This document shows positions 7,635 through 13,659 of a DNA stretch of 64,000 nucleotides, piece after piece. Below the pieces are notes generated by a model that saw only the letters and a program-made list of their open reading frames with translations, ran no database searches and was not told the origin of the DNA. The translations under genes and the position numbers were made by a program. How positions within the stretch are numbered: the first letter of the stretch is position 1; every line of letters starts with the position of its first letter. The stretch covers positions 806,001 through 870,000 of the forward strand of contig NZ_FQYP01000001.1 in the NCBI RefSeq assembly GCF_900141785.1. Direction: 5' to 3'. Origin of the DNA: Aquimarina spongiae. Lineage in GTDB: Bacteria; Bacteroidota; Bacteroidia; Flavobacteriales; Flavobacteriaceae.

Positions 7635-8261
7635 ATGACACGAATTATCATCACCACACTCTCTATCTTTTTTCTGATTTCTTGCGGAAAAAACAAGGAA
7701 AAAGAAGAACCAGGTTTACTAAATGTGATTGAAGGGGTTTCTGACTTAAATCAAATAGCGAAAGAAGCAGAAAAAATTGAAGAAGAAAATGATCAGCTCA
7801 TAGCTGCTACGCCAATTTCTAATGAAAACATGAAGAAAAATCTTCCGGAAACTATTTTGGGATATCCAAGAACCAAATTTTCGGTAGGTAATCAGTTTAT
7901 GCCGGATGTATCTATGGGAGAGGCCGAATATGAAAGTGAGAATGGAGCATTTATTTCACTTTCCATACTAGACGGAGCTGGAGAAACAGGAAGCGCCATG
8001 GTGACTTTGGCCAGACTAGGGTTTGCCAGAGATTTTGAAGAACAAACGGACAGAGGATATCGCAAATCAACCACAATAAAGGGGTATAAAGCTGTTGAAG
8101 AAGTAGAAAAAGATCCCTATGACAACCGAGAAACTTCAAAAATCGACCTCATGGTGGCGAATCGCTTCTTAATTTCTTTGGAAGGTGATGCTACTATAAA
8201 ACAATTAAGAGAAGCTGTTGGAGAGGTGAATCTTGAGGCTTTTGAAAACTTAGCAGAATAA
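7635..8261 (+). CDS. Lipoprotein of unknown function
   Basis: I do not recognise a named family. The protein (208 residues) has a short basic N-terminus, a hydrophobic stretch and a lipobox FFLISC with Cys17, followed by a charged Lys/Glu-rich linker (about 18-70). The remaining part contains PETILGYPRTKF, GEAEYESENGAFISLSILDG and a C-terminal region ending in DATIKQLREAVGEVNLEAF. The overall pattern looks like a small periplasmic alpha/beta domain anchored to a membrane. It is the first gene of a run of four (7635-10053) with short gaps, the second of which encodes a vWA lipoprotein, so the products may act together at the envelope. Confidence 0.8.
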   Translation: MTRIIITTLSIFFLISCGKNKEKEEPGLLNVIEGVSDLNQIAKEAEKIEEENDQLIAATPISNENMKKNLPETILGYPRTKFSVGNQFMPDVSMGEAEYESENGAFISLSILDGAGETGSAMVTLARLGFARDFEEQTDRGYRKSTTIKGYKAVEEVEKDPYDNRETSKIDLMVANRFLISLEGDATIKQLREAVGEVNLEAFENLAE

Positions 8262-10473: not shown

Positions 10474-10511
10474 TCGAAATTCTTGAATAACCATCGAAAT
10501 TCGGGAATACC
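10474..10511. promoter_or_regulatory. Two direct repeats, operator candidate for the AraC-type regulator
   Basis: TCGAAATTCTTGAATAACC (10474-10492) and TCGAAATTCGGGAATACC (10494-10511) are near-copies whose starts lie 20 bases apart, about two helical turns. They sit 37 bases before the start codon of the AraC-type gene. AraC-family regulators commonly bind direct repeats spaced by about two turns, so an autoregulatory or promoter-proximal operator is a reasonable inference. Confidence 0.45.
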
Positions 10512-10547
10512 GTGTAACATGATTTGCGTTGAAGTGAAGCTAAAAAT

Positions 10548-10982
10548 ATGTTTGCTTATAATCTTAAATCATCAGAACTAATGCACGCAAATCAACATTA
10601 CTCTTCAAAAGAAATCGCTGATATTAATATCGCGGATGATAGAATACAAAGCATCATCCAAAAGCTTGATGAATTAGAAAAAACAGACTTCTTCTTTTCT
10701 TCAGAATGCAACCTTTACAATACAGCAAAGACCATTAATTCGAACACATCTTACCTATCAAGAATTATCAATATCTACAAACTAAAAACATTTAACGAAT
10801 ATGTAAATCATTTGAGGATACAACACTGCATCAAAAAATTAAAAACTGATAGAAGATTTAAGTTATATACGATCAAAGCGATTTCGAATGAACTGGGGTA
10901 TAAAAGTGTAAATACTTTTATAGTTGCTTTCAAAAAACAAACAGGTTATTCGCATGCTGTTTACCTCAAAGGTCTTAGGTAA
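10548..10982 (+). CDS. Stand-alone AraC-type DNA-binding protein
   Basis: 144 residues that are almost entirely an AraC/XylS DNA-binding domain. The first helix-turn-helix is at about 58-77 (NTAKTINSNTSYLSRIINIY) and the second at about 107-127 (TIKAISNELGYKSVNTFIVA), closing with FKKQTGYS. There is no ligand-binding, receiver or membrane domain, unlike most flavobacterial relatives, which carry TPR or 7TM sensors; the first 45 residues may be an oligomerisation stub. It is followed by a gene set encoding two double-glycine-leader peptides and is the natural candidate for their regulator. A truncated former longer regulator is an alternative, but the reading frame is intact. Confidence 0.85.
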   Translation: MFAYNLKSSELMHANQHYSSKEIADINIADDRIQSIIQKLDELEKTDFFFSSECNLYNTAKTINSNTSYLSRIINIYKLKTFNEYVNHLRIQHCIKKLKTDRRFKLYTIKAISNELGYKSVNTFIVAFKKQTGYSHAVYLKGLR

Positions 10983-11124
10983 ATGCTGTAAGAACAAAAA
11001 AAGCAGTTTCAAAAACATCAAATATATAAAATTGACATACTACACTTTTAAAAACCAACTTTTTACACATAAATTGATCTTTAATTCATACTTAGTCTAT
11101 TTCTCAATATAAAAACAAAATATC

Positions 11125-11277
11125 ATGTCAAACCATCTTAGGAATTTAAATTTCAAACCTATTACCAAATCAGAACAGCTGCATATCAAAGGAGGATATA
11201 CTCAAGAAAATTGGGCTTGTAACAGTTCAGGAGATAATCCACATCAATACCTTCCTTCTGGTTGTCAAAATAGTTAA
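11125..11277 (+). CDS. Double-glycine-leader peptide precursor 1 (50 residues)
   Basis: ATG at 11125, TAA at 11275-11277. The predicted leader is residues 1-24, MSNHLRNLNF then KPITKSEQLHIKGG, with a GG pair directly before the presumed cleavage point and hydrophobic residues at the usual -4, -7 and -12 spacing for C39-peptidase recognition. The core (25-50) begins YTQENWAC and ends YLPSGCQNS, with two Cys (32 and 47) that could form a disulfide. It starts 142 bases after the AraC-type gene and 32 bases before the lipoprotein gene. No peptidase-ABC transporter or modification enzyme is nearby, so export would need a distant PCAT-type transporter. Supported by leader similarity to the second peptide (12036) and by position; the product itself is unrecognised. 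Confidence 0.65.
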   Translation: MSNHLRNLNFKPITKSEQLHIKGGYTQENWACNSSGDNPHQYLPSGCQNS

Positions 11278-11309
11278 TAAACTAATATTCACACACAAAT
11301 TAAAACATC

Positions 11310-11954
11310 ATGAAAAAAACACTCTTAAAACTACTCTTTTTAGGCCTATTCTTACATTTGGTAGGTTGCCAAACTGAGGATGATGTCATTCTTGAAGAAG
11401 AAAACAGCATCCCAACAACTATTCTATATGAAAACCCTGTAGACTTAGGTAAGTCTTCAACACCAGCAACGTTTATTTGTGCTGGCACTCCCCTGCCTAA
11501 TGGTTATAAAATCGTTGGATATTTGAATCACATAAATTGCAGTTCTAGTTTTGGGCTATTTCTTGGGTTTTACAATGCTGCGATTATCGTACCCATTGGA
11601 ACCCCTATTCTTTCGAGTGCAGGTTCTGGATGCGATGACAATTTTTGCATCTGGATTGTAGGAAATGATTTCGAATCTAACGCATACGTCGATATTAGAA
11701 CCACAACAGGAAATGAAATTATAGGAACTTATAGAGGGAATGATAGAGTGCAATATATCAATGACTCCGGCCAAGATGTAATCACTTTAAGACTAGCATC
11801 TGATTTTGAACGAAGTGAATTTGCAAGTAGAGGATTACGTATTTGGGTGGTCAACCCCGACGCCAGAAAATGGGGAGATGGACGAACCGTAAGAAGATCC
11901 GCTGGCAGCAATCCAAACCAGGATTGTGGGCAAATTGAATGTTTAGATCCTTGA
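11310..11954 (+). CDS. Cys-containing lipoprotein between two GG-leader peptides
   Basis: 214 residues, no family recognised. MKKTLLKLLFLGLF then HLVGC gives a good lipoprotein signal with Cys20, followed by an acidic linker. The mature part has seven further Cys, including FICAG, INCSS, SGCDDNFCIW and a C-terminal pair in QDCGQIECLDP, suggesting a disulfide-rich extracytoplasmic domain. The middle is beta-rich (AYVDIRTTTGNEIIGTYRG). It lies between two small precursor genes, which suggests an immunity, receptor or carrier role; this is inferred only from position. Confidence 0.8.
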   Translation: MKKTLLKLLFLGLFLHLVGCQTEDDVILEEENSIPTTILYENPVDLGKSSTPATFICAGTPLPNGYKIVGYLNHINCSSSFGLFLGFYNAAIIVPIGTPILSSAGSGCDDNFCIWIVGNDFESNAYVDIRTTTGNEIIGTYRGNDRVQYINDSGQDVITLRLASDFERSEFASRGLRIWVVNPDARKWGDGRTVRRSAGSNPNQDCGQIECLDP

Positions 11955-12004
11955 AAAATCATAAATACTGGACCTGTTGTAAAATCAATTTATTCTAAAA
12001 CAAA

Positions 12005-12043
12005 ATGAAAAAATTAACCCTTAAACACACATACAATGATTAA
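12005..12043 (+). CDS. Possible 12-codon upstream ORF (leader or remnant)
   Basis: ATG at 12005 encodes MKKLTLKHTYND and stops at 12041-12043, overlapping the ATG of the next precursor (12036) in another frame. The start MKKLTL resembles the beginning of many Bacteroidota natural-product precursors. It could allow translational coupling or be a decayed precursor; translation is unproven. Confidence 0.3.
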   Translation: MKKLTLKHTYND

Positions 12044-12236
12044 AAACATTTTAAATCTCAACGGTGTGACCGTTCTTAAAAAAGGGACGCAAAAATCGAT
12101 TAATGGCGGTTTCTTTGGATGCGAGCCCAGTCTTTTTGAATGTAGATCAGATAGTGATTGTCCATGTGGTCCATGTGGAATTACCATCAATAATGGAGGT
12201 AACCCTATTTTTGTTTCTGGAGTTTGTGCTTTTTAA
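12036..12236 (+). CDS. Double-glycine-leader, six-cysteine peptide precursor 2 (66 residues)
   Basis: The leader (1-25) is MIKNILNLNGVTVLKKGTQK followed by SINGG, the standard flavobacterial bacteriocin-type leader with a GG cleavage site. The 41-residue core has six Cys at 29, 36, 42, 44, 47 and 64, in a dense CRSDSDCPCGPCG arrangement that could give three disulfides, followed by a Gly/Asn-rich stretch and VSGVCAF. It differs from peptide 1 (11125) in core but has an equivalent leader, indicating a shared export route. The function (bacteriocin, signal, metal-binding or adhesive peptide) cannot be told from sequence. It ends the peptide locus before a strong terminator. Confidence 0.75.
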   Translation: MIKNILNLNGVTVLKKGTQKSINGGFFGCEPSLFECRSDSDCPCGPCGITINNGGNPIFVSGVCAF

Positions 12237-12290: not shown

Positions 12291-12321
12291 AAAACGGTAG
12301 TTCCTTTTGAACTACCGTTTT
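12291..12321. terminator. Bidirectional rho-independent terminator
   Basis: AAAACGGTAGTTC (12291-12303) pairs perfectly with GAACTACCGTTTT (12309-12321) across a 5-base loop and is flanked by an A run and a T run. It separates the convergent peptide and M24 peptidase genes. Confidence 0.9.
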
Positions 12322-12333
12322 TTAATAAGTTAA

Positions 12334-13659
12334 TCACTTGGTTCGCTTAGGTATTGTAATCAATTCTGTTTGTCTTTCATTTACATATCTAAAACCATCC
12401 TTGCCCCAAAATCCAGCTTCTTCCAGCATGATTCTAACATCTTTTTTCCATTCAGGGATAGTAACTGTAGTATTTAGTTCTATGGCATAAACCGTATCCT
12501 CATATAATGGATAATCTCCAGTACCTGGAACACCTCCCTGCGAATCCCACATACCTATAGTTGGCCCAGAAGAATGTCCATAGAGCCCCAAAGGATGTGT
12601 ATAAATAGAAGGTTTAAATCCTTCTGCTCTGCCCTGCTCTAGGGATCGTAATAAAATTTCGTTTCCAGTTTTACCAGTCTTAAAGTTAGACGTCAAAATA
12701 TCTTGTACACGATTCCCATCCGCAAATGCTTTATTCAAAAAATCAGGAGGAGACGTTTCTTCATTCTTCAAAATGTATGCATGTTGCTGGCAGTCAGTAT
12801 TGAGACGTAAATAGGTAATTCCAAAGTCGCAATGAATTAAATCTCCCATTTGGATTATTTTTTCTTTGGGTCGGTCCGAAAAGGAAACGATATGACTTTG
12901 CAGGTCCTCTCCTGTTCGCTGAATATCTACGGTAGGATGAAACCATGTTTCTAACCCCAAATCAGTTGCTTTTTGACGTAACCACCATACAACATCATCT
13001 GTTGTGGTTTCCCCAGGTTTGATCACTGAAGTACTAAATGCTTCACCAATAATATCATGAGTTATTTTTACCAACTCACGATAAATCTCCATCTCTTGAG
13101 ACGTTCTGGTCTCTATCCAAGCAATTGCTAATTTCTCTGCAGAGGTGATTCTTAACTTAAAATCCTCAGGGAGAACTTCCATAAATTCATTATAGTCGGT
13201 TTTTACTATTCCGTCAGCAATTCCAAAATCTTTTGAATAATTAATTCCTATGGATTTCGGATTTCTTGTGGAAATGATATCTACCAGGGCTTTCCATTGA
13301 TCAGGTTGCTTTTCTTTGTCCCAGGCAGAGTCTATATTTTTACCAACATTATATCGGGCTACTGCCAATTTTTCGATAGTATTTTTGGATTGATCTCTGT
13401 AGAAAACTAAGATCGTTCTACGTCTTGCATTCAACCAGGTTGACGGCAACATTGTTTTAAGCACGGGATCTTCGTTATATTCTCTGGAAATCAGAATCCA
13501 CATATCGAGTCCAGTTCGATCCATTAATTTGGGTAACAAATCATTAAATCTGGCTTCCAGAATCATATCAATAACCGCAGCTCGCTCCCGTTGCGGAAGA
13601 ATTTGAGCCTGTATCGAAGTAGAAAGAGTAAGCAAGCCAACAATAAGAATCTTTTTCAT
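12334..13659 (-). CDS. Secreted M24-family metallopeptidase (Xaa-Pro dipeptidase-like)
   Basis: 441 residues with signal peptide MKKILIVGLLTLSTSIQAQ, so exported. The C-terminal half is a pita-bread metallopeptidase domain with all five metal ligands in place: Asp278 (HCDFG), Asp289 (NTDCQ, 11 residues later), His362 (YGHSSGP), Glu394 (ELNTTV) and Glu413 or 414 (LEEAGF). The N-terminal 200 residues resemble a creatinase-like N domain (STWLNARRRTILVFYRDQ). The probable reaction is release of an N-terminal residue or dipeptide from X-Pro peptides in the periplasm. It is monocistronic, and its terminator is shared with the convergent peptide locus. Confidence 0.88.
   Translation of the reverse strand: MKKILIVGLLTLSTSIQAQILPQRERAAVIDMILEARFNDLLPKLMDRTGLDMWILISREYNEDPVLKTMLPSTWLNARRRTILVFYRDQSKNTIEKLAVARYNVGKNIDSAWDKEKQPDQWKALVDIISTRNPKSIGINYSKDFGIADGIVKTDYNEFMEVLPEDFKLRITSAEKLAIAWIETRTSQEMEIYRELVKITHDIIGEAFSTSVIKPGETTTDDVVWWLRQKATDLGLETWFHPTVDIQRTGEDLQSHIVSFSDRPKEKIIQMGDLIHCDFGITYLRLNTDCQQHAYILKNEETSPPDFLNKAFADGNRVQDILTSNFKTGKTGNEILLRSLEQGRAEGFKPSIYTHPLGLYGHSSGPTIGMWDSQGGVPGTGDYPLYEDTVYAIELNTTVTIPEWKKDVRIMLEEAGFWGKDGFRYVNERQTELITIPKRTK

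Follow-up and report, generated by a model that had tools for sequence, protein, structure and literature searches.

A probable reduced surface and secreted-peptide locus in Aquimarina spongiae, and a family of TPR-AraC regulators adjoining GG-leader peptide genes

A four-gene locus of Aquimarina spongiae appears to be a reduced copy of a surface and secreted-peptide locus of the genus Aquimarina. The locus lies at 10548-12236 of the window, the whole 64,000-nt stretch of the 5.35-Mb genome that was analyzed, and its genes, all on the plus strand, encode an AraC-type DNA-binding protein, two GG-leader peptide precursors, and a lipoprotein (Table 1). The reduction, that is, the gene losses relative to related loci, is well supported, as are the anatomy, the synteny, and the operator site; the biological role is not well supported. 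The reading we favor, with a probability of about 0.58 for the whole explanation, is a surface peptide module that is driven constitutively or has been re-wired in another way. In relatives, a conserved palindrome, a CARDB-protein gene, the lipoprotein, and one or more GG peptides come after a regulator that, as read from its sequence, spans the membrane. The sensor half of the regulator and the CARDB-protein gene are missing here; what remains is the DNA-binding domain and the palindrome, together with the lipoprotein and both peptides. The shortened regulator most likely still binds the palindrome and would drive peptide 1 and the lipoprotein, and perhaps peptide 2, independently of membrane input. 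After cleavage at the GG site, the peptides would leave the cell through C39-peptidase ABC exporters whose genes lie at other places in the genome, and would act extracellularly, partnered by the surface lipoprotein. We infer the activity of the regulator, the membrane topology of its relatives, the export, the peptide-lipoprotein interaction, and the biological role.

Table 1. Features of the A. spongiae peptide locus, in window positions.
Feature	Position	Strand	Description
Direct repeat upstream of the AraC gene	10474..10509	+	TCGAAATTCTTGAATA-ACCA-TCGAAATTCGGGAATA; possible binding site of a regulator
AraC-type DNA-binding gene	10548..10982	+	144 aa; Pfam HTH_18 6.6e-11
Palindromic operator candidate	11018..11035	.	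TCAAATATATAAAATTGA; 2 mismatches vs relatives' TCAATTTTATAAAATTGA
Peptide 1, GG-leader precursor	11125..11277	+	50 aa; 24-aa leader; 26-aa core YTQENWACNSSGDNPHQYLPSGCQNS; 2 Cys
Lipoprotein	11310..11954	+	214 aa; signal peptide; lipobox LVGC; Cys20
Peptide 2, GG-leader precursor	12036..12236	+	66 aa; 25-aa leader; 41-aa core FFGCEPSLFECRSDSDCPCGPCGITINNGGNPIFVSGVCAF; 6 Cys
Hairpin and T run, likely terminator	12294..12323	.	ACGGTAGTTC-CTTTT-GAACTACCGT + T run; read directly from sequence
Metallopeptidase M24 gene	12334-13659	minus	convergent to the locus

The ORF and domain survey confirmed the genes and coordinates given in the first-pass annotation for the AraC domain, the two GG peptides, and the lipoprotein, together with the lengths of both leaders and cores and their Cys counts. 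The same annotation had described the locus as free of any adjacent transporter, protease, or modification enzyme. This was correct for exporters and modification enzymes, none of which adjoined the locus in the ORF and Pfam survey, and incorrect for the protease, since the M24 metallopeptidase gene adjoins it, though convergently. In the mapped relatives, too, the locus ends at the M24 gene, and the hairpin and T run between it and peptide 2 are likely to form a terminator. No Pfam or NCBIfam match above cut-off was obtained for peptide 1, peptide 2, or the lipoprotein. PADLOC returned no match for the four window proteins or for one full-length regulator, and none of the phage records encodes the lipoprotein.

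The window AraC protein aligned only with the final ~114-138 aa of the regulators of syntenic relatives (45-61% identity). These regulators are ~575 aa long; TPR repeats follow an initial signal-like stretch, and a hydrophobic segment lies between the repeats and the AraC domain. As read from the sequence, the topology would be an export signal, an extracytoplasmic TPR region, one membrane helix, and a cytoplasmic AraC domain. By this alignment, the window gene corresponds to the C-terminal part of a TPR-TM-AraC regulator that is full length in syntenic relatives. Its earlier description as a minimal stand-alone AraC regulator therefore needs revision, as the gene stands alone only because the sensor half is absent here. 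No remnant of the TPR half was detected at E ≤ 1 between window positions 8000 and 14000.

The usual order in the mapped relatives is the ~575-aa regulator, a secreted protein of 370-750 aa, lipoprotein(s) and GG peptide(s), and the M24 peptidase. The window locus is syntenic with these loci, with DUF3108 upstream and M24 downstream. The secreted protein of the relatives contains a CARDB domain and weakly matches Por_Secre_tail (T9SS sorting tail); its gene is missing from the window locus. The A. acroporae locus (L053) has kept the full gene set, including relatives of both window peptides, and further genes of that locus are also missing from the window. The absence of the sensor half, the CARDB gene, and these other A. 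acroporae genes would also fit a decaying remnant of little function, as would the two mismatches in the window palindrome. However, none of the four reading frames is broken, 114 residues of the AraC domain align gap-free, and the Cys patterns of both peptides are kept, so that decay is improbable in our estimate.

An 18-bp palindrome, TCAATTTTATAAAATTGA, was found with at most one mismatch in 14/14 relative loci, 16-119 nt past the regulator stop codon (for L058, the regulator end was taken from the ORF map). A second copy lies downstream in 10 of the 14 loci, and in eight of these ten it starts 114-120 nt before the lipoprotein start. The AT-rich window copy, with its two mismatches, lies 35 nt past the AraC stop codon and starts 107 nt before peptide 1. 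Sites with up to two mismatches number five in the genome, and shuffling of the intergenic region gave 1/5000. Exact copies in 37 Aquimarina genomes amount to 11, of which 10 are at the lipoprotein locus. As a candidate operator, the palindrome is better supported than the direct repeat at 10474 that had been proposed before. The repeat itself is genuine: TCGAAATTCnnGAATA occurs twice at a spacing of 20 bp, the pair is unique in the window, and shuffling reproduced the arrangement in 0/100 cases. Its TTCnnGAA core recurs around other TPR-AraC/peptide pairs of the same genome. The proposed operator role was not sustained, because no TTCnnGAA site is present upstream of the 13 orthologous regulators, whereas the 11018 site is conserved; the repeat was therefore rejected as the conserved operator of the clade.

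Both window peptides carry a short leader that ends in GG and has a hydrophobic residue at -4, and their homologues keep these leader features, some of them with AG. Homologues of peptide 1 are present in A. litoralis (L043:1086-1226, 57% identical) and A. acroporae (L053:9664-9825, 38%), with the core pattern W-x-C ... LP(S/T)GCQ kept. Peptide 2 has at least six aligned Aquimarina homologues that share its Cys pattern and a DxDC motif; its genome E value of 4.4e-21 was obtained with a GG-peptide profile that includes peptide 2 itself. For pairs among the relatives, dN/dS was 0.02-0.31, indicative of purifying selection; the window peptides lack a relative close enough for this comparison. Because homologues adjoin the same lipoprotein in other species and related pairs are under purifying selection, both window peptides are judged from sequence to be real genes, beyond chance. 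The Cys residues of the cores probably form disulfides. The AlphaFold model of peptide 2 (pLDDT 70, pTM 0.40) was not interpretable. At L028:6255-6449, a peptide-2 homologue is apparently broken by a stop codon or frameshift, and an intact copy is present elsewhere in that locus.

Thirteen of the 33 Aquimarina genomes searched, A. spongiae among them, encode the lipoprotein; it was not found in any other genus of that set. A wider scan of named genomes yielded 21 lipoprotein loci, all from Aquimarina except one from Tenacibaculum. A GG or AG peptide with at least two Cys lies within about 2.5 kb in 17 of the 21 loci, and the other four have no recognized GG peptide. The conservation of leaders and synteny that the first-pass annotation had proposed to look for is present in relatives.

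The peptides could be antagonistic and bacteriocin-like, as the bacteroidetocins are, with the lipoprotein serving as self-protection or a kin marker. Class II and Bacteroidota bacteriocins typically have a GG leader and a Cys-rich core (PMC6671954), and peptide 2 weakly matches the NCBIfam CCPGW putative bacteriocin family (E 0.015, below the family cut-off). The selection pattern argues otherwise: the related peptides are under purifying selection, and cores are often more conserved than leaders (peptide-2 pairs and L039 comparisons; the L044/L052 pair has a core more variable than its leader), with no sign of an arms race. The same lipoprotein is also accompanied by several unrelated peptide families, and the locus lacks the thiol oxidoreductase, 5-TM protein, and exporter of bacteroidetocin loci. 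We regard antagonism as unlikely.

The residues that follow the lipidated Cys bear on the location of the lipoprotein. They read CQTEDD in the window and CQKEDD (several) and CQPEED in relatives. In Capnocytophaga, the surface-export signal of lipoproteins has been experimentally defined as C-X-K-(D/E)2-X, and the Flavobacterium consensus is SDDFE (PMC5080379). The window QTEDD is similarly acidic, and several relatives have QKEDD; the window lipoprotein has Thr at the place of the Lys. The AlphaFold model (pLDDT 77) comprises a disordered linker and an Ig/E-set-like domain at about aa 96-199. Foldseek/VIA fold searches gave Ig/E-set-like matches only (best Z 8.2), with the residues before 96 barely covered, and these matches may reflect merely a common arrangement. 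An export-like signal and a modeled Ig-like domain suit a surface binding protein, without proving one. The lipoprotein may act in immunity, as a receptor, or as a tether, the three roles that the first-pass annotation had proposed. The Ig/E-set-like model, together with the CARDB and weak Por_Secre_tail matches of the neighboring gene in relatives, could also indicate a surface-structure module, an adhesive layer that the lipoprotein and peptides would build or decorate jointly with the CARDB protein. Yet the peptides and lipoprotein are kept in the window despite the absence of the CARDB gene, and we give this possibility a low probability. The C-terminal domain of the lipoprotein (aa ~75-197) was also observed inside larger proteins at three other Aquimarina loci (L030, L031, and L032), two of which adjoin large GH-like genes, as read from sequence.

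The search for a C39-peptidase transporter elsewhere in the genome found two complete exporters with C39, ABC_membrane, and ABC_tran domains (C8 and C11). The C11 exporter sits in a lanthipeptide cluster; the other has only an HlyD partner, with no GG gene recognized nearby. C39 hits were obtained in 35 of 37 Aquimarina genomes and in 33/33 of the nearly complete ones. A dozen or more other GG-type peptide genes, with no adjoining exporter, occur at dispersed sites of the A. spongiae genome. The simplest reading is therefore export in trans, and the two complete exporters make it plausible for the window peptides. With leaders and synteny conserved in relatives and C39 exporters in the genome, the earlier proposal of an exported-peptide module with a lipoprotein partner gains support.

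The C11 cluster (C11:307170-318126; L128, L035) is of the class I lanthipeptide type. It contains genes for a LanB dehydratase (PF04738, 4.7e-143), a second LanB-like and a LanC-like protein, two near-identical GG precursors, the C39 exporter, and an HlyD-like protein, and it adjoins a TPR-AraC regulator that has a GG peptide of its own. A second LanB cluster (C10:94934-101500, L133; PF04738, 1e-149) also lies beside a TPR-AraC regulator; the genome search found no C39 exporter near it. At C14:432184-435498 (L003), a C39-like domain is fused to a vitamin-K-epoxide-reductase/thioredoxin-like protein, as read from sequence, and a small GG peptide gene is close by.

The pairing of regulators with GG peptides is the strongest new lead of this analysis. 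The A. spongiae genome encodes 11 full-length regulators of the TPR-AraC family in addition to the window copy. A pair was scored when an ATG ORF of 35-110 aa, with a hydrophobic residue at -4 and GG or GA, started at most 500 nt downstream of the regulator. By this rule, a GG peptide followed the regulator in 12/12 cases in this genome, including the window copy, where 142 nt separate the AraC stop codon from the start of peptide 1, versus 1/17 other AraC-type genes (Fisher p 2.5e-7). With the window copy and three regulators from the search profile omitted, the count was 8/8 (p 8.3e-6). The background of the rule was 2% at random positions and 4/76 after long ORFs, three of these four being GG peptides. 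Since the rule was set after the pattern had been seen in A. spongiae, 16 other Aquimarina genomes provide the independent test: 16/16 regulators had a GG peptide downstream, some of these loci being mutually orthologous. Among full-length Aquimarina family regulators outside the window clade, a GG-peptide gene lay directly downstream in 27/27, usually accompanied by a motif common to the regulator and peptide promoters. The 11 orthologues of the window regulator had no GG peptide within 500 nt, because the secreted-protein gene comes first, and 11/29 regulators were positive when the search was widened to the family. Motifs common to the regulator-upstream and regulator-peptide regions exceeded those of permuted pairs in Aquimarina (p < 5e-5); outside Aquimarina, the shared motif was not significant (p 0.41). 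A profile of regulator-adjacent leaders gave 13 strong hits in the A. spongiae genome, all beside regulators, which is a weak reciprocal test because 12 of the 13 were in the profile. The leaders of peptides beside most other family regulators weakly match NCBIfam NF038153 (0.025-0.098). At C27:31800-36600 (L092), one TPR-AraC regulator is followed by three tandem GG peptides, with a fourth about 2 kb off on its opposite side.

This arrangement looks like that of peptide signaling, and the near-constant proximity of the regulator family to GG-peptide genes hints at an undescribed peptide-linked control system. The peptides may be signals sensed by the TPR-AraC family, a Gram-negative analogue of RRNPP, with sensing lost and activity constitutive in the window copy. 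The counts of 12/12 and 16/16 against 1/17, the motifs shared by regulator and peptide promoters, and the comparable pairing of a TPR receptor with an adjacent propeptide in RRNPP systems (PMC10075063) favor such sensing. Several counted loci are mutually orthologous, however; the proportion falls to 11/29 in the wider family, none of the window regulator's orthologues is followed by a peptide at up to 500 nt, and co-location may reflect regulation alone rather than sensing. We hold this possibility as doubtful. A Bacteroidales RiPP survey reported TPR genes in two clusters and suggested pheromone binding (PMC10352776); no description of TPR-AraC/GG-peptide pairs was found in the literature searched.

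More broadly, and tentatively, Aquimarina and in part other Flavobacteriaceae might possess an undescribed peptide communication system, in which membrane TPR-AraC regulators each have their own GG peptide, with matching operators ahead of both genes and with shared PCATs for export; the window locus would be a branch that lacks the sensor and drives the lipoprotein and two peptides directly. Peptide cell-cell signaling is well known in Gram-positive bacteria, and a description in Bacteroidota was not found in the literature searched. A one-to-one association of TPR-AraC regulators and exported peptides, with recognizable operators, makes the question testable in a single cultured genus. The pairing can also guide the search for small genes (44-81 codons) that gene callers may miss, and suggests a possible role for PCAT exporters with no adjoining peptide gene.

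Returning to the favored reading of a reduced, re-wired surface peptide module, three known systems are relevant for comparison. Bacteroidetocins are short GG-leader bacteriocins of Bacteroidota with Cys-containing cores, for which a C39-peptidase ABC exporter is expected, and their loci contain a PCAT, a 5-TM protein, and usually a thiol oxidoreductase (PMC6671954). The window peptides resemble them in their short GG-leader precursors, their Cys-containing cores, and the expected use of such an exporter. Their leaders are longer, however (24-25 aa versus 15-16 aa), and none of these three partners is present in their locus, where the linked genes encode an AraC regulator and a lipoprotein. 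In relation to the class I lanthipeptides of Bacteroidota (NF038153 leader), the peptides beside most other family regulators have related leaders, and two other family regulator loci of the same genome (C11 and C10) carry LanB genes, whereas the window peptides have another leader type and no adjoining LanB dehydratase or LanC cyclase. In the RRNPP systems of Bacillota, a TPR receptor is paired with an adjacent propeptide gene (PMC10075063). The TPR-AraC family differs in its AraC-type helix-turn-helix, its TPR region predicted to lie outside the inner membrane, and its GG leader and PCAT export, and the window regulator lacks the TPR peptide-binding domain of RRNPP regulators. The pairing cannot be filed under RRNPP, given its different type of helix-turn-helix, its different predicted location, and the missing TPR domain of the window copy. 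The likeness is one of layout: the full-length relatives place a TPR regulator with a DNA-binding domain beside a small gene for a peptide predicted to be exported, and the window locus, too, has a propeptide gene directly beside its regulator gene.
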